Position numbers and translations under genes: made by a program
Part shown: piece by piece, positions 20,636 to 28,170 of the stretch
How positions within the stretch are numbered: the first letter of the stretch is position 1
Layout: each line of letters starts with the position of its first letter
Origin: Candidatus Vecturithrix granuli
Lineage (GTDB): Bacteria; Moduliflexota; Moduliflexia; Moduliflexales; Moduliflexaceae
Direction of reading: 5' to 3'
Assembly: GCA_000739535.1 (NCBI GenBank)
Contig: DF820468.1
Coordinates: forward strand, 140,312 to 204,311
Length of the DNA stretch: 64,000 nt
The notes under the pieces: model-generated
Database searches by the model: none
Told to the model about the DNA's origin: nothing
Seen by the model: the letters and a program-made list of their open reading frames with translations, nothing else

Positions 20636-20814
20636 GGTTCGTAGTTCTCGCTTTCGCGAGTTCTTCCGCATGAAGGCGGAACTACGAACCGAACAGCAGC
20701 GAGGATGGATTATAGCAACCCTCAATCATTTGTCATGGGTCACTTCGACTCCGCTCAGTGACCGGGCGGTTGTCGAGCGGAGTCGAGACACGAATTATGC
20801 AGGATTGCTATATA
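20636..20814. repeat. two palindromes overlapping the 3' end of selD
   Basis: GGTTCGTAGTTC...GAACTACGAACC form one inverted repeat (20636-20690), with an inner CTCGCTTTCGCGAG hairpin. A second (about 20711-20814) has outer arms TATAGCAA/TTGCTATA and inner arms around CTTCGACTCCGCTC/GAGCGGAGTCGAG. Its right arm covers the last codons and stop of selD (YSNPA). Confidence 0.6.
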
Positions 20815-21856
20815 TAACCTGAATACCTTCACCTTCCTGCACATCGCCAATGATAGCGCAGAAATGTCCGGACTCAGCAAAACGAGTGGTCAGGAGATTG
20901 GCATGTTCAGGAGGCACGGCGACAAGCAAGCCGCCGGAGGTTTCCGGGGTAAACAATAACAATTGCATTTCATCCGAGATTCCCGGCGCAAAATGAACGC
21001 TATCCTGGTAGCAGCGTTGATTTCTGCAAGAACCGCCCGGAAACAGCCACTCTTCCGCATATTGTCTGGCTCCGTCCAAAAATGGAATCTGTTCCAGGGA
21101 AAAACAAAGCTGCACGCCGCTTTTTTCCGCCATTTCAGAGCCATGCCCTAGCAGCGAAAAACCGGTAATATCGGTACAGGCATGAACCCCGACCTCTTGA
21201 ATCAGGCGCGTGGCCTCCCGATTCAACAGTTTCATGCTCGCTATCGCGGGCGCAATGTGCTGCGGCTCGGCCACATCCGCCTTTAGGGCGGTCGTAATGA
21301 TGCCCACGCCTAGCGGTTTGGTGAGCACTAATACATCCCCGGCTTTCGCGCCGGCTTTGGTCAGTAATTTATCAGGGTGAATCACCCCCATCACCGACAG
21401 GCCGTATTTGGGTTCTTTATCATCCACCGTATGCCCGCCGACCAGCACGCCTCCGGCTTCAGCGACTTTTTCGGCCCCGCCGCGTAAAATTTCAGAAATC
21501 ATCTCGATTGGCAAATCTTTTGGGAATCCGCAAATGTTCATCGCCAAAGCGACTTCACCGCCCATAGCATAAATGTCGCTCATGGCATTCGTCGCGGCAA
21601 TCGCGCCGTAATCGTACGGATCATCTACAACCGGAGTAAAAAAATCCAGGGTTTGAATCACGGCGACGTTGTCAGTGATTTTATACACTGCGGCGTCGTC
21701 GCTAACATGCAGCCCGACCAGCACATTCGGATGTTGCGCGGCCGGAAATAGACCTTGCAGCGGACGCAGCACCTGCGCCAGGACCATGGGGTCCATTTTC
21801 GCCGCTCAGCCGGCCGCCGTTGTTAACGCTGTCAAACGAATTTTTTGGTTTTCCAT
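20795..21856 (-). CDS. selD: selenide, water dikinase (selenophosphate synthetase), selenoprotein form
   Basis: A 353-residue enzyme making selenophosphate from selenide and ATP. From the ATG at 21856 the frame reads MENQKIRLTALTTAAG, then an in-frame TGA (21806-21808, codon 17), then AAKMDPMVLAQVLRPL. This is the position of Cys17 in the E. coli enzyme and is selenocysteine in many homologues. Downstream are SDDAAVYKI, VDDPYDYGAIAATNAMSDIY and GFSLLGHGSEMAEKSG, all normal SelD. A short hairpin follows the TGA. Annotating only from the first ATG after the TGA (21796) would lose the active site. The cell must therefore decode UGA as selenocysteine (or another residue). Confidence 0.93.
21781..21794 (-). 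promoter_or_regulatory. candidate bacterial SECIS hairpin in selD
   Basis: Eleven bases after the UGA, GGACC and GGTCC pair around a CCAT loop. Bacterial SECIS elements are short hairpins within about 40 bases after the UGA that bind SelB. The stem is short and the apical loop lacks an obvious GU, so a larger fold with downstream bases is possible. Confidence 0.45.
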
Positions 21857-22025: not shown

Positions 22026-22622
22026 TTATAAACTCACCACTTTGCCTGCGCCAAGTATGGTTTCGGCAATGGTGTACATGTTCGAAATCTCGCCGATTTT
22101 CACCTGGTCTTTCAGACCGTAATGCCCCAGACAGGTGCCGCAGGCCAGCATAGTGATGCCCTGATCTTTAAGAAGGTACAAATCGTCCAGCACTTTTGAG
22201 CCTTCGACGACGAGCTTGACACCGCTATTGAAAAAAATGATCATATCAGGCAAAGGCTGGATTTCTCCGAGGGTATGGAAAAAGGCGCGAATGAGAATTC
22301 CCCCCAGTTCAGGGTCGCCACGCCCCATAAATTCATCAGGAATCACCAACACCAGCGGCCCTGCTGCCTGAATACTTCCGGTAGGATACGGATGGACTAC
22401 TGGCTGCGCATCTTCGCCTTTGCTGATTTGCAAATAAATGCCATCGGCTTTGGCTTCAGCAATCACCGAACATCCCATCTTTTCCGCCATCTTCGTGACG
22501 TTCTGCTGTGACGTTTCGTTATCCACAATCGTAACGACGTTCGCGTCTTCCTGCAACGCATTGCGCGTTTGAATGACCGGTTGTGGACAGGCCAGTCCCC
22601 GCGCATCAACGATTTTTGCCAT
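22026..22622 (-). CDS. yedF: selenium metabolism protein YedF (TusA-like plus DsrE-like)
   Basis: A 198-residue two-domain protein. Residues 1-70 are a SirA/TusA fold with VDARGLACPQPVIQTRNAL, whose CPxP Cys can carry sulfur or selenium. Residues 85-198 are a DsrE/F-like domain with a conserved LACGTCLGHYGL near residue 160. This fusion occurs almost only beside selD, yedE and related genes and is thought to pass selenium to SelD. It lies between the tRNA gene and selD on the same strand, consistent with a polycistronic selenium operon. Confidence 0.92.
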   Translation of the reverse strand: MAKIVDARGLACPQPVIQTRNALQEDANVVTIVDNETSQQNVTKMAEKMGCSVIAEAKADGIYLQISKGEDAQPVVHPYPTGSIQAAGPLVLVIPDEFMGRGDPELGGILIRAFFHTLGEIQPLPDMIIFFNSGVKLVVEGSKVLDDLYLLKDQGITMLACGTCLGHYGLKDQVKIGEISNMYTIAETILGAGKVVSL

Positions 22623-22641: not shown

Positions 22642-22690
22642 AGGAGTGCGAAAGCTCTGCTTTAGCTGTCAAAGCGAGCTTTGACACTCC
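22642..22690. repeat. family B palindrome downstream of the tRNA gene
   Basis: GGAGTGCGAAAGCTCTGCTTT and the later GCTTTGACACTCC pair at their ends, and each half also folds on itself (AAAGCTCTGCTTT, TCAAAGCGAGCTTTGA). The same unit recurs at 24602-24652 and 34544-34640. It lies 7 bases 3' of the tRNA and could be a processing or termination structure. Confidence 0.6.
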
Positions 22691-22696
22691 GGATTC

Positions 22697-22793
22697 TGGA
22701 GGCTGGGTTCGGAGTTGAACCGAACAGACCGCCTGTTCAGCGATCTCAAACGGGTTTGCAGCCCGCGGGGAGCACCGGCTCCCTAAACCAGCC
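22697..22793 (-). tRNA. tRNA-Sec-like tRNA with GCA (cysteine) anticodon, encoded CCA
   Basis: Minus-strand cloverleaf. Acceptor: GGCTGG (22793-22788) pairs with CCAGCC (22706-22701), then a U (22700) as discriminator and CCA (22699-22697); the pairing can extend outward by A-U and G-C to 8 bp from 22795. D arm: 6-bp stem GGGAGC/GCTCCC (22783-22778, 22773-22768) with a 4-base loop. Anticodon arm: GCGGG/CCCGT with loop CTGCAAA, anticodon GCA at 22759-22757. Long variable arm: GATCGC/GCGGTC (22745-22740, 22732-22727). T arm: TTCGG/CCGAA with loop TTCAACT. C22707 is a bulge or pairs with G22725. The 6-bp D stem and long variable arm are tRNA-Sec hallmarks; GCA and U73 are cysteine identity elements. 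Confidence 0.85.
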
Positions 22794-22803
22794 TCGCGCG
22801 TTT

Positions 22804-23031
22804 TCATACATCATGAATTCCGGCCATTTCAACTTTTGCGTGTGACAGAACCGGCAGTGCGCGGTCTTTATCAATCTGAAAGATGCGGATACAAGAACCG
22901 CAGTCCGAACTTAAATGCCGCGGCACCGGAATAAGCTTACAGGGAATACCCGCTTCTTCCAATACTTTCTCTGCCCGCAGGGCATAACTGGTCGAATAGA
23001 CCAGAATCACCGCATATTCTGTTGTGTTCAT
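22804..23031 (-). CDS. DUF3343 protein (putative Se/S carrier)
   Basis: A 75-residue protein (MNTTEYAVILVYSTSYALRAEK start) with PRHLSSDCGSCIRI, the conserved Cys motif of DUF3343. The family is nearly always found with yedE, yedF, selD or cysteine desulfurase genes and is regarded as a small selenium or sulfur carrier. GGAG lies shortly before the ATG at 23031. The tRNA gene begins 10 bases after its stop. Confidence 0.85.
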   Translation of the reverse strand: MNTTEYAVILVYSTSYALRAEKVLEEAGIPCKLIPVPRHLSSDCGSCIRIFQIDKDRALPVLSHAKVEMAGIHDV

Positions 23032-23049
23032 GCTGCTTCTCCGGCAAGA

Positions 23050-23080
23050 GAAACCGGGTTTTTCCAAAAAACCCGGTTTC
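23050..23080. terminator. family A hairpin inside the selenium operon
   Basis: A near-perfect stem (GAAACCGGGTTTTT with AAAAAACCCGGTTTC, 2-base loop) between the desulfurase stop and the DUF3343 start. Its position within a same-strand gene run suggests partial termination or mRNA stabilisation rather than a full stop. Confidence 0.45.
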
Positions 23081-23090
23081 TTCGCTATGT

Positions 23091-24257
23091 TCAGGCTGTT
23101 TCTCTGGCAAGCGTTTCTATGGCGGTCAAAGCCCGCGCCACTTCTTCAGGCGTATTGAACGCGCCTAAGCCAAAACGCACGGTTCCCACCGGAAAGGTAT
23201 TCATCGTCTTATGCGCGGCCGGCGCGCAGTGCAACCCCACCCGACATAGGACGCCAAACTCATCATCCAGGCGTAAACCGACCTCTGACGGTTCTAATCC
23301 GGCGATATTGAATGACACGGTTGCCGTTCGACGTCTGGTCTCCTGCAAACCGTAAACGACAACGCCTGCAATACTCTGTAATCCATCGAGCAGTTGTTGT
23401 GTGAGCAACATTTCATGCTGGCGAATCTGCGCGACTCCTCGAGCCTTAATCCACTTCAAACTGGCGAGTAATCCGGCTAATCCGACCGCATTGCACGTGC
23501 CGCTTTCAGCCATATCCGGCAGAAAACAGGGTTGTTCCTCTTCTTCGGAACGGCTACCGGTACCGCCCCGTTTCAATGGTCGCAGTTGCCCGACCTGGAC
23601 TCGTTCGCCCAGAATTAATCCGCCGGTGCCTGTGGGACCATAGAGTGACTTATGTCCGGTAAATCCGAACAAATCAATATTTTCAGCCTGCATGTTGATC
23701 GGGTATGCTCCGGCCGTTTGTGCCGCGTCAAGCAGGAAGAGCAGATCATGTTGTCGGGCAATTACGCCGATTTCTGCCGTCGGCTGAATCGTGCCGATCA
23801 CGTTTGAGGCGTGGTTCAGGGCGATCATTCTGGTAGTCGGGCGAATCGCGGCCTTAACATCATCAGGAGCCAACAATCCAGATCCAGAACAGTGTACAAC
23901 GGAAAGTTCAACCCCGTGACGCTCTAATTCCCGCAGGGGCCGCATCATGGAATTATGCTCCATGCTGCTGGTAATCACATGATCGCCCGGACGCAACAGC
24001 CCGGTTAAAGCCAGATTGAGCGCTTCCGTGACATTGTGCGCAAAGACCACACGTAACGGGTCGGGCGCATGGAATAGGTCGGCGAGCGCCTCGCGCGTTT
24101 GATACACTATGCGTCCCGCCTCTAACGCCAGACGATGCCCTGAACGCCCGGGACTGGCCCCAACATGGGTCAGAAAATACGTCATAGCCTCGACAACTTC
24201 CGGCGGTTTAGGCCAGGATGTCGCTGCATTGTCAAAATAGATTAAGGTCTCCATCAT
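23091..24257 (-). CDS. cysteine desulfurase / selenocysteine lyase-like aminotransferase (class V)
   Basis: A 388-residue PLP enzyme of the group often found with selenium genes (EF2568-type). It shows IYFDNAATSWPKPPEV at the start, SSMEHNSMMRPL, the PLP-binding Lys in FGFTGHKSLYGPTG, and the catalytic Cys in VGLHCAPAAHKTM near residue 350. It removes S or Se from cysteine or selenocysteine and would feed the adjacent TusA-like and YedF carriers. It starts 3 bases after the TusA-like stop. Two tandem ATG codons make the exact start uncertain by one residue. Confidence 0.88.
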   Translation of the reverse strand: MMETLIYFDNAATSWPKPPEVVEAMTYFLTHVGASPGRSGHRLALEAGRIVYQTREALADLFHAPDPLRVVFAHNVTEALNLALTGLLRPGDHVITSSMEHNSMMRPLRELERHGVELSVVHCSGSGLLAPDDVKAAIRPTTRMIALNHASNVIGTIQPTAEIGVIARQHDLLFLLDAAQTAGAYPINMQAENIDLFGFTGHKSLYGPTGTGGLILGERVQVGQLRPLKRGGTGSRSEEEEQPCFLPDMAESGTCNAVGLAGLLASLKWIKARGVAQIRQHEMLLTQQLLDGLQSIAGVVVYGLQETRRRTATVSFNIAGLEPSEVGLRLDDEFGVLCRVGLHCAPAAHKTMNTFPVGTVRFGLGAFNTPEEVARALTAIETLARETA

Positions 24258-24260
24258 CTT

Positions 24261-24470
24261 TTATTTCGTGAGGATCAATTTAAATTCATCACCCATATCT
24301 TGCACTTCCACGCGACATCCGGCTTTTTCGGACATTCTGCGCACATTTTCGCGCGAGGTGACAGTTTCAACCAACACTTCAATCGGGAAATTCCCTTTCT
24401 GAATCGCATTCCGGGTTAAAATCACCGGTTGGGGGCAAGATAATCCGCGTGCATCAACTTGTGTCGCCAT
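24261..24470 (-). CDS. TusA/SirA-family sulfur (selenium) carrier
   Basis: A 69-residue protein with VDARGLSCPQPVILTRNA, the CPxP carrier motif, followed by the alpha/beta fold typical of TusA. A strong AGGAGG precedes the ATG at 24470. It is closely similar to the N-terminal domain of the YedF protein 2 kb away. In this operon it probably carries selenium or sulfur between YedE, the desulfurase and SelD. Confidence 0.9.
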   Translation of the reverse strand: MATQVDARGLSCPQPVILTRNAIQKGNFPIEVLVETVTSRENVRRMSEKAGCRVEVQDMGDEFKLILTK

Positions 24471-24584: not shown

Positions 24585-24671
24585 AGGTTATGGACATTTT
24601 TCGGAGTGCCAAAGCTCTGCTTTGGCCGCGCAAGCAGAGCTTGCGCACTCCGGAGAGCGTGTCCATAACCT
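24585..24671. repeat. nested palindrome, family B
   Basis: The outer arms AGGTTATGGACA and TGTCCATAACCT are perfect (24585-24596, 24660-24671). They enclose CGGAGTGC...GCACTCCG with inner AAAGCTCTGCTT/AAGCAGAGCTT (24602-24652). It lies in the yedE to tusA gap. The adjoining 24490-24575 stretch has several degenerate copies of CAGTATTCAGT/ACTGAATACTG, another inverted set. Confidence 0.65.
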
Positions 24672-24693: not shown

Positions 24694-25821
24694 CTATGAG
24701 AGTTTTTCGCGCATGGTAAACCCGATAACCAGACATACGGCAAAGCCGAAGATCACGGCCAGCATACCGGCCGAGCTGATGCCTCCGACCTGAAGCACAC
24801 CTTCTACTAGTGCATCAGGTCTCCCGGCCAGCATAAAATTATGCGAAATCCCGGCCCCGACAATCATGCCAAGCACAAACACGCCGGAGTCTCCATCGCC
24901 TTCACCTGCTAAAAACAATTGCCGTCCGGGACAGCCACCGGCTAACGCAAAGGCCAGACCTGACAACGCCATGCCTAAAAAATTCCAGAGATGACTGCTG
25001 TGAGCGACCGGCTGCGGCGCAAAGCCGAATTTCACCTGTCCTAAGATGAGATTGACGACAAAGGCTGTGACAAGGAGTGTACCGACGCCGCTAATCAAAT
25101 GGGTGTCGCCCATCAAAATGATGTCTCGAATCGAACCCATTGTGCAAAAACGAGTACGTTGCGCTAAAAAGCCGATCAGGAGTCCGACTGCAAGCGAGAT
25201 GAGCAGTGGAGCATGTAAAGATCCCGGTCCGCTCTCGCTAAAGAAAATCGCTGCACCTTCGCCAAACTTCGGCCGGACGAGACGGAAAAGAAGCAGGAGA
25301 ATCATCAAGCCTGGCATCAGCCAGCCAACAACAGGATAGGTTTTCTGAGCGCGTCCTAAATTGTAACCGGACTTGAGAAATTGCACGCCGATGAGAATGC
25401 CGACCGTTAAGCCGGCCAGTCCGGCAATCGCATTCAGGTCGCCTCCGGCCAGACGCAGCAACGCGCGCCAGGGACATCCGAGAAAAACCAGGGCGCCGAT
25501 CATCGCGAAAATGCCCAAAAAAAAGCGGACAATTGGCGCAGAGCCGGCGCGAGCTTTAAATTCGCCAAATAATAAGGCTGCAATTGCGGCCCCCAGCACA
25601 AACCCCATGATTTCAGGACGTAAATATTGTACAACAGCGGCCCGATGCAAACCAAGTGCTCCGGCAATGTCGCGCTCAAAACAAGCGACACAAATCCCCA
25701 TATTGGGGGGATTGCCAAATTTTTGTAAGAGCGAAGCGAATAGACCGATCACTGCGCCGGCGAAAATGATTCCTTTGCGGGATGCAAAAAAACGGGTGAG
25801 TCCTTCGTATTGATGAGACAT
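24694..25821 (-). CDS. yedE: YedE-family selenium transporter
   Basis: A 375-residue polytopic membrane protein of the YeeE/YedE family with about ten helices. The two half-repeats carry the conserved Cys motifs FLGCPWRALLRLAGGD and ALAGGCPGRQLFLAGEGD; GICVACFERDIAG and RTRFCTMG add further Cys. The subgroup linked to selD and yedF is thought to import a selenium compound. AAAGGAGG before the ATG at 25821 decides the start over an upstream one. It is the first gene of the operon and has a structured leader. Confidence 0.9.
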   Translation of the reverse strand: MSHQYEGLTRFFASRKGIIFAGAVIGLFASLLQKFGNPPNMGICVACFERDIAGALGLHRAAVVQYLRPEIMGFVLGAAIAALLFGEFKARAGSAPIVRFFLGIFAMIGALVFLGCPWRALLRLAGGDLNAIAGLAGLTVGILIGVQFLKSGYNLGRAQKTYPVVGWLMPGLMILLLLFRLVRPKFGEGAAIFFSESGPGSLHAPLLISLAVGLLIGFLAQRTRFCTMGSIRDIILMGDTHLISGVGTLLVTAFVVNLILGQVKFGFAPQPVAHSSHLWNFLGMALSGLAFALAGGCPGRQLFLAGEGDGDSGVFVLGMIVGAGISHNFMLAGRPDALVEGVLQVGGISSAGMLAVIFGFAVCLVIGFTMREKLS

Positions 25822-25878
25822 GCGCAAACCTCCTTTGTTCTGTGTGAGTTTCATCTCAAACGAAACCACACGCCACTT

Positions 25879-26007
25879 ACTGCCTGCGCAGACCGGCAGT
25901 AACAGCGGAGGACGCACATTATGATGGAAAGGAAAACAATGCTGCGCTCCGATTACGCCCGGATATGCACAGACTGACCATGAAGCGCCGCCCGGCGCTC
26001 AAGGTCA
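25879..26007 (-). promoter_or_regulatory. structured 5' leader of the selenium operon
   Basis: Two hairpins precede yedE on the minus strand. The first is TGACC-TT-GAGCGCC-GGGC-GGCGCTTC-AT-GGTCA (26007-25975). The second is ACTGCC/GGCAGT with a 10-base loop (25900-25879). The start codon is about 58 bases further on. No known riboswitch class is recognised. A selenium-responsive or attenuating leader is possible. Confidence 0.35.
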
Positions 26008-26312: not shown

Positions 26313-27977
26313 ATGGCTGTTTACAAACTTCTTTTGCTGCAACCCCCTGTGCAGGACTTTTATAATACAGCAATTCGGTTACAACCGATTGGCTTATGTT
26401 ATCTCAAGGCGACCGTGCAAAAATTCCTGCCTGAATTTCAGGTGGTCGTGAAAGATTATCATCAGGGATGGGGCCGGCATACACTTCCGCTGCCAAAGGA
26501 ACTCGCATATCTCAAAGATTATTACGCCTATCCTGATAAAAGCCCGTTTTCGTCATTTTACCAGTACTATCATTTTGGGGCCTCCTTTGAAGCCATTGCC
26601 GAAGATGTGGCGGCTGAACAGCCTGATCTTATTGGTATTTCATCCTTATTTTCGCCCTACTTCCGCGAAGTAATGCGTTGCGCTGAGGCAATCAAACAAC
26701 GTTGGAACGCGCCGATTATTCTCGGTGGGGCGCATGTATCTGTCGAACCTGAACGTATGTTGCGACATGAGTGCATTGACTTTGTGATTCGCGGTGAAGG
26801 CGAGCGTCCATTAGTAGAATTTCTGAGAGCCTGGATGCAACAATCTGACTATGACAAAGTGCCGAATTTAGGCTTCAAACGCCATGCCAAACTGATATTG
26901 AATCCGCTGGCCCCAAATTACGCGATTGATGACCTTCCTGTCCCTGATTTTTCCGATTTTCCCGCTAATCGCTATCTGTTTGAACAACGTCCCCTGAGTT
27001 TCGTCATTACGTCGCGCGGCTGTCCGCACCGCTGCGCGTTCTGTTCCGTACATCTCACCTTTGGGTATCGTTACCGCCGCCGCTCAAACGAGGCGATTCT
27101 CCACGAGCTCCAACAACGCTATCATGCTGGTTATCGCGTCTTTGATTTTGAAGATGATAACCTGACCTTTGATCGTCAAGCCATGTTAGAACTTTGTGAG
27201 AAAATTATTGCAAATTTTCCTCCAGGCGATCTTCAGTTCCTTGCCATGAACGGCCTGTCGTACCATAGCCTGGATGTCGAATTATTGCATAAAATGAAGC
27301 TTGCCGGATTCACGCACCTGAATCTCTCGCTGGTCAGCGCCAATCAATCGATTCGCAATCAAACCCGTCGTCCGCACTCTCTGGAGCACTATTTCACCGT
27401 CGTTCATGAAGCCGCTCAACTTGGATTTCAGATTGTTTCCTACCAAATTCTCGGCTTACCAGATGAATCGCTCGATTCAATGATTGCAACTCTGGTGCTC
27501 AATGCTCAATTACCGGTGCTTCTGGGAGCTTCCATATTTTACCTGACACCCGGTTCGCCGCTCGCACAAGAATTTCCTCCATTAACTGAAACTGACGTAT
27601 TTAAAGCGCGTTTGACCGCCATGTCAATCGAAACGCCGCATATTAAACGCGATGATTTATTCACCTTGTTTGTGACGACTCGTATTCTCAATTTTTTTAA
27701 AGGATTAGAGTTGCCTGAAAAGTCAATGCCGTTGGCAGAAGTTTTACATGATGCCGAGCAGCAGGGAGGACGGACGACGTTAGGAGTCACGATTTTACAC
27801 AAACTTTTCGAACAGCATAGCCTCTATGCAACAGTAGGAAATAACCTGAAACCCGTACGCCGGTTTCAGGTCGAACTATTTTTCCGCGTCTGGAACCAGC
27901 TTGAACGAATATGCACACAGCAAGGCAGACAGATCACCCACCTTGCAAGTTTTTCAGGGGATTTTCCCAACGGATAA
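26313..27977 (+). CDS. B12-binding-domain radical SAM protein
   Basis: A 554-residue protein. Residues 1-190 are a cobalamin-binding-like domain (LLLQPPVQDFYNTAIRLQPIG; LIGISSLFSPYF; APIILGGAHVSVEP). The radical SAM core begins with TSRGCPHRCAFCSVH, the 4Fe-4S ligands being CxxxCxxC near residue 239, followed by FDFEDDNLTFD. This architecture includes methylases and cyclases of varied substrates. Homologues with the LYFEQRPLSF-like insert are not assigned. The last codons and the stop lie inside a 29-bp perfect palindrome, so the C-terminus (FPNG) may have been replaced by repeat sequence. Confidence 0.85.
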   Translation: MAVYKLLLLQPPVQDFYNTAIRLQPIGLCYLKATVQKFLPEFQVVVKDYHQGWGRHTLPLPKELAYLKDYYAYPDKSPFSSFYQYYHFGASFEAIAEDVAAEQPDLIGISSLFSPYFREVMRCAEAIKQRWNAPIILGGAHVSVEPERMLRHECIDFVIRGEGERPLVEFLRAWMQQSDYDKVPNLGFKRHAKLILNPLAPNYAIDDLPVPDFSDFPANRYLFEQRPLSFVITSRGCPHRCAFCSVHLTFGYRYRRRSNEAILHELQQRYHAGYRVFDFEDDNLTFDRQAMLELCEKIIANFPPGDLQFLAMNGLSYHSLDVELLHKMKLAGFTHLNLSLVSANQSIRNQTRRPHSLEHYFTVVHEAAQLGFQIVSYQILGLPDESLDSMIATLVLNAQLPVLLGASIFYLTPGSPLAQEFPPLTETDVFKARLTAMSIETPHIKRDDLFTLFVTTRILNFFKGLELPEKSMPLAEVLHDAEQQGGRTTLGVTILHKLFEQHSLYATVGNNLKPVRRFQVELFFRVWNQLERICTQQGRQITHLASFSGDFPNG

Positions 27978-28170
27978 AAGAACACAACGGATATTTTTTT
28001 CGTTGTGTTCTTTTATCCGTTGGGAAAATACAAAAAGCAGAATTTACTGCTTTGGGACAGAAGTTTTTAGTGCTTCGGAAATCCCTGGATGGGGTAGCCT
28101 TGTCGGACAACGCAGACGTGTCTGCCAAGGTCCGACAAGTCCTGTTAGTAAAAACTTCTGTCCCAAAGCA
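27961..28170. repeat. two adjacent long palindromes between convergent genes
   Basis: The first has a perfect 29-bp stem (27961-27989 with 28001-28029, loop GATATTTTTTT). The second has perfect 22-bp outer arms (28048-28069 with 28149-28170) built on TGCTTTGGGACAGAAG, inner arms CTTGTCGGAC/GTCCGACAAG and a central GCAGAC-GT-GTCTGC hairpin. The block overlaps the stop of the radical SAM gene and abuts the stop of the regulator gene exactly. Confidence 0.85.

Follow-up and report, generated by a model that had tools for sequence, protein, structure and literature searches.

The selenium operon in a 64,000-nucleotide stretch of the Candidatus Vecturithrix granuli assembly (GCA_000739535.1, contig DF820468.1, positions 140,312 to 204,311; the whole stretch is called the window) contains a tRNA gene with the body of a selenocysteine tRNA (tRNA-Sec, encoded by selC) and the anticodon of a cysteine tRNA (tRNA-Cys). 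This raises the question of what such a tRNA is and what it does among selenium genes. By its features it is very probably a tRNA-Cys of the selC* kind. This tRNA class is already known, and the linkage with selenium operons is the part that appears to be new. The full interpretation, in which the selC*-like tRNA-Cys is charged by cysteinyl-tRNA synthetase (CysRS), delivered by SelB and used to insert cysteine (Cys) for selenocysteine (Sec), was given a probability of about 0.5.

Sequence and fold of the window tRNA

The gene is situated at positions 22697 to 22793 on the minus strand. ARAGORN called it as tRNA-Cys with anticodon GCA, and the Rfam tRNA-Sec model (RF01852), the kind of covariance model to which the initial annotation had pointed, scored it at 58.1 bits (E 3.4e-10), above the cut-off of 47. 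Its minimum free energy (MFE) was -47.8 kcal/mol (z -3.8), and none of 200 shuffles was equally good. ARAGORN, Rfam and folding thus agree on the complete minus-strand cloverleaf that the initial annotation had drawn between DUF3343 and yedF. The mature tRNA is 97 nt long, from G1 (22793) to the end of the CCA (22697). It is composed of an acceptor 5' strand GGCUGG(U)(U) with G1-C72 pair, a D stem GGGAGC/GCUCCC closed by the loop CGGU (6 bp and 4 nt), an anticodon arm GCGGG-CUGCAAA-CCCGU and a T arm UUCGG-UUCAACU-CCGAA, the D arm and the anticodon and T loops being exactly those described before. The variable (V) stem was also found, with 7 bp (AGAUCGC/GCGGUCU) in place of the 6 bp first counted. 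The anticodon lies at 22757-22759, and the two features earlier proposed as cysteine identity features, U73 and an encoded CCA, are present at 22700 and 22697-22699 respectively. A check for serine identity found the long V arm, while the discriminator U73 and the anticodon GCA speak for CysRS. On its 3' side the acceptor-T branch is 12 nt long, compared with 13 in the tRNA-Sec genes aligned. C22707 (C66), previously taken as a bulge, can be drawn so, or else as a U7-C66 mismatch or, as in the MFE structure, as a sixth T-stem pair. In the anticodon loop the sole change from the usual selC loop is U34 to G34, as had been noticed; origin as a point mutant of the host's own selC was nevertheless ruled out by divergence along most of the length.

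The host assembly (8.38 Mb, 21 contigs, 93.8% complete, 10.75% contamination) possesses a regular selC(UCA) with G73, a regular tRNA-Cys, selA and one full copy of CysRS. Among the host genes that the initial annotation had proposed to look for, selC(UCA), tRNA-Cys and selA were therefore found, while selB was not found above the cut-off. Because the host has tRNA-Cys and selC in their normal forms and a single CysRS, the window tRNA is an extra tRNA; the coexisting canonical tRNA-Cys also rules out a housekeeping tRNA-Cys with merely a long arm. Tetranucleotide usage of the window at 16-32 kb agreed with that of four other host contigs (r 0.86-0.95), which makes origin from a binning contaminant unlikely, and this candidate was rejected. 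Nothing matching the window tRNA was found in the plasmid and phage collections searched, and the single match in a pattern scan of the host genome contigs was a chance match within a coding gene. The other three genomes examined of the host phylum (four in all) contain regular selC only, and yedF was not found in them.

Relation to known tRNA classes

The selC* tRNA-Cys genes come from anaerobes including Nitrospirae and Proteobacteria (Mukai et al. 2017, as presented in PMC7609411). By that account the class has a tRNA-Sec-like body, U73, GCA or UCA as anticodon and a shortened acceptor-T branch of 8/4 type with one bulged adenosine at 51a, and a downstream selB*, in Desulfobacterales also cysS*, is reported only for two deltaproteobacterial groups (PMC7609411) and is therefore no requirement for every member. 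The window tRNA resembles this class in folding as a tRNA-Sec-like cloverleaf whose V arm is long and whose D arm is of Sec type, in U73 together with GCA, in a 12-nt 3' strand as in 8/4, and in being additional to the normal tRNA-Cys and selC. It differs in having a mismatch or bulge at C66 instead of the A51a bulge in the T stem, and in lying inside a yedE/yedF/selD operon, where yedF and selD come next in place of selB* or cysS*. The relatives in the large set described below also differ from the class, with a full 8/5 branch. As the A51a bulge is missing, the window tRNA was placed as a variant taken to function like the selC* class, the likeness being judged from the class description. 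The kinship with the tRNA-Sec-like cysteine tRNAs of the Soll laboratory, which the initial annotation had named, is thereby supported.

Other classes fit less completely. With tRNA-Sec the window tRNA shares a score over the family cut-off, the 6-bp/4-nt D arm and the long V arm, but it has GCA and U73 instead of UCA and G73 and a 12-nt 3' branch instead of 13 bp (8/5), and the host has a regular selC besides. Anticodon variants of tRNA-Sec which read UGC/UGU (cited in PMC8124441) likewise combine a Sec-type body with a Cys anticodon; the window tRNA differs from them by the Cys discriminator U73, and Sec charging is not indicated. The allo-tRNAs (PMC7609411, PMC11431864) have a comparable 12-bp acceptor branch, 6-bp D stem with 4-nt loop and long V arm, but their identity is serine whereas the window tRNA carries cysteine features.

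Related tRNAs in selenium operons of other phyla

The YedF loci of 42 other genomes, taken from a domain-wide bacterial sample of 385 genomes, were searched with a purpose-built covariance model. A U73 Sec-shaped tRNA was found in the operon of two more genomes, G286 and G263. The G286 tRNA (L126:3019-3119) has anticodon UCA and U73 and lies directly 3' of yedE-DUF3343-LysR-yedF; it exceeds the Rfam cut-off though ARAGORN missed it, and elsewhere in G286 (L218) there is a regular selC adjoined by selB. The G263 tRNA has GCA and a very long variable arm and is placed between a LysR gene and yedE. A location-blind pattern, representing a Sec-shaped (U/G)CA tRNA with U73-CCA, gave three true matches when run over all 385 genomes (window, G286 and G263), and all three are in yedE/yedF operons. 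The strict-pattern matches in G010 and G450 were artefacts spanning ordinary tRNA genes. Most matches to a looser GCA pattern in this sample were due to chance, the real tRNAs being that of the window and one in G153, with U73 and no encoded CCA. The latter comes after genes for a LysR protein and a transglutaminase-like protein, an order which recurs in the large set; as LysR genes are common, it was considered a weaker fourth case. Patterns freed of the U73 condition yielded no real long-arm tRNA in which GCA went with a discriminator other than U73.

A large set was obtained from the phylum of G263, where 52 of 395 genomes matched the pattern, one of them (G450) by artefact. Two genomes carry two copies, giving 53 tRNAs in 51 genomes. 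A gene for LysR, YedE, YedF, SelB, SelD, DUF3343 or Csd adjoins 32 of the 53 loci, in DNA looked at over about 1.5 to 6 kb per side depending on the locus. Within 1.5 kb, one of these genes was present at 17/29 distinct loci (18/32 before hand removal of three duplicates), against 0/14 tRNA-Cys loci and 0/8 selC loci; the Fisher values, 2e-4 and 5e-3, were computed with the three duplicates included and ignore shared ancestry. In six loci of one family selB is directly downstream of the selC*-like tRNA. In the carriers with matches fully listed, counted by eye, canonical tRNA-Cys was present in 31/31 and UCA selC in 27/31. As a separate observation, G683 (L197, L198) possesses a pair of distinct U73 Sec-shaped tRNAs, and a selB gene comes directly after each of them.

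The location beside selenium genes in several unrelated phyla suggests that these tRNAs have a genuine function in selenium biology, and agrees with the initial annotation in marking the operon placement as the unusual part.

Structural conservation and constraint

Among 52 distinct tRNAs of the large set the 8-bp acceptor stem is kept, with compensatory changes on both sides of pairs, and so is the 5-bp T stem. A V stem of at least 5 bp was observed in 87% of them as compared to 17% of shuffles, with unrelated V sequences. In one genus (L120:4862-4988 and L153-L155) the variable region extends to about 52 nt and folds into a branched arm, in which a closing stem bears two hairpins.

Constraint was compared in 20 genomes of this phylum having both selC and selC*. 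The T arms of selC and selC* within a genome showed an identity of 0.97, though the constancy of U73 and of the T arm is partly forced because the search pattern prescribed U73 as well as the T loop and some of the T stem. Conservation of the D arm was 0.92 among selC and 0.62 among selC*, and that of the V arm 0.76 and 0.29 respectively. The anticodon arm is conserved inside each set (0.92 among the relatives), and all 20 selC genes of the carriers have G73. CysRS recognises U73 and GCA, and SelB contacts the acceptor-T side. The V arm is recognised by seryl-tRNA synthetase (SerRS) and the D arm by SelA (PMC11431864). On the basis of these arm constraints and enzyme contacts, selC* looks like a tRNA-Sec which is no longer recognised by SerRS and SelA, has retained its SelB side and has come to be recognised by CysRS. 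Two charging routes had been offered earlier, CysRS with Cys at Sec sites and SerRS/SelA with Sec at Cys codons. The former fits the sequence comparison better, since the D and V arms of selC* are unconserved in the 20 genomes and U73 accompanies GCA.

Organization of the selenium operon

The operon is organized on the minus strand in the order yedE, TusA/YedF-N-like gene, cysteine desulfurase, DUF3343, tRNA, yedF and selD(UGA). The yedE gene (24694..25917; TIGR04112, 481 bits) encodes a putative selenium transporter, and is followed by a TusA/YedF-N-like small sulfurtransferase (24261..24470) and a cysteine desulfurase family protein which is Sec-lyase-like (23091..24257; TIGR01977). The DUF3343/Se_S_carrier gene (22804..23067; PF11823) ends 10 nt ahead of the tRNA, and yedF (22026..22622; TIGR03527, 202 bits) and selD (20795..21856, start codon inferred) lie beyond it. 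The Sec codon UGA of selD (21806-21808) encodes residue 17 at the active-site position (TTAAG-U-AAKMDP), and Sec decoding is thus needed in the host. Comparative work ties the YedE, YedF and DUF3343 genes to selenium use (PMC5322559). The co-transcription with selD and yedF stated in the initial annotation agrees with gene order and strand, and goes no further than these.

A GC-rich hairpin element (GGAGTGC-AAAGCTCTGCTTT...) also occurs twice, once just past the tRNA (22643-22693) and once between tusA and yedE (24603-24654); the pair resembles a repeated palindromic element. Past a radical SAM gene, at 27961-28029, lies an inverted repeat whose 29-nt arms match perfectly and are separated by 11 nt.

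Proposed role and alternative explanations

Most likely, ordinary CysRS would charge the window tRNA with cysteine, and its Sec-type shape would let SelB accept it. Cys may then be steered to selenoprotein sites instead of Sec under selenium shortage, in step with the selenium-uptake operon. The basis for this SelB-linked replacement of Sec by Cys is formed by the neighbouring genes, by the selB directly downstream of relatives belonging to one family and by earlier publications on the UCA form, which by the title of Vargas-Rodriguez 2018 as cited in PMC8124441 point to SelB delivery; taken by itself the role is tentative, falling somewhat short of even odds. The GCA anticodon may have been kept since CysRS requires it, at the cost that UGA would be only a near-cognate codon or that only UGC/UGU would be read, and this is the weakest step. 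Several observations weigh against the proposal. GCA pairs with UGC/UGU and has no normal-wobble pairing with UGA. No selB adjoins the window copy, no SelB was found above the TIGR00475 cut-off in the 93.8% complete host assembly, and the assembly has no second CysRS. The absence of SelB may be an assembly gap, as selA, selC and the UGA-containing selD are present. About 40% of the large-set loci have no recognised selenium neighbour, and the fixed positions of the search pattern, mentioned above, also count here. The 12-bp allo-tRNAs are EF-Tu substrates (PMC11431864), and the 12-nt branch of the window copy could likewise suit EF-Tu instead of SelB.

That branch (PMC11431864), together with GCA and U73, would also fit an ordinary extra Cys isoacceptor, brought by EF-Tu to Cys codons and co-expressed for Cys-rich selenium and sulfur proteins. 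Such a function leaves unexplained the selB link, the persistence of the Sec-type body in several phyla and the T arm held in common with selC, and a normal tRNA-Cys is already there, so that this explanation is unlikely. Slightly less improbable is a non-decoding role, in which the tRNA, bearing Cys or Sec, would serve as aminoacyl carrier or regulate the operon by sensing its own charging. Operons of this kind contain such a tRNA with GCA (window, G263) as well as with UCA (G286); the anticodon is therefore perhaps not what matters, leaving room for such a role. In addition, CysRS can misacylate tRNA-Cys with Sec (PMC11431864), and the operon includes a Sec-lyase-like gene. On the other side stand the conserved anticodon arm of the relatives and the encoded CCA, and a carrier or sensor system of this kind is not known.

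The tRNA might instead be an anticodon variant of tRNA-Sec, which SerRS charges through the long V arm and SelA converts from Ser to Sec for insertion at chosen UGC/UGU codons. The SelA-type 6-bp/4-nt D arm of the window copy and the presence of selA and selD in the host favor this, but U73, where the 20 carrier selC genes have G73, and the drift of the D and V arms among relatives argue the other way and place it below both of the preceding alternatives. A decayed or inert copy is highly improbable. Its absence along with yedF from the other host-phylum genomes and the one mismatch in the acceptor branch would suit decay, but every tRNA feature is intact, CCA is encoded and other phyla retain a gene of this sort in comparable surroundings.

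Implications for selenium biology

No paper with both YedF and tRNACys was found in the open-access literature searched, to which the 2017 selC* paper does not belong, and the novelty of the linkage is provisional. Until now selC* tRNA-Cys was an oddity to which no role had been firmly assigned. The cross-phylum tie to selenium-uptake operons, with either anticodon, makes a role testable and names lineages for the tests, including single-contig genomes. Comparison of selC and selC* in one genome indicates which parts of the tRNA are still constrained once SerRS and SelA drop out. Tentatively, a third tRNA with Sec body and Cys identity may be a recurrent, selected part of bacterial selenium operons of the LysR/YedE/YedF type, spread over three or more phyla. 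There it would act as a selenium-dependent switch, placing Cys for Sec via SelB, or have a non-decoding function as carrier or sensor.
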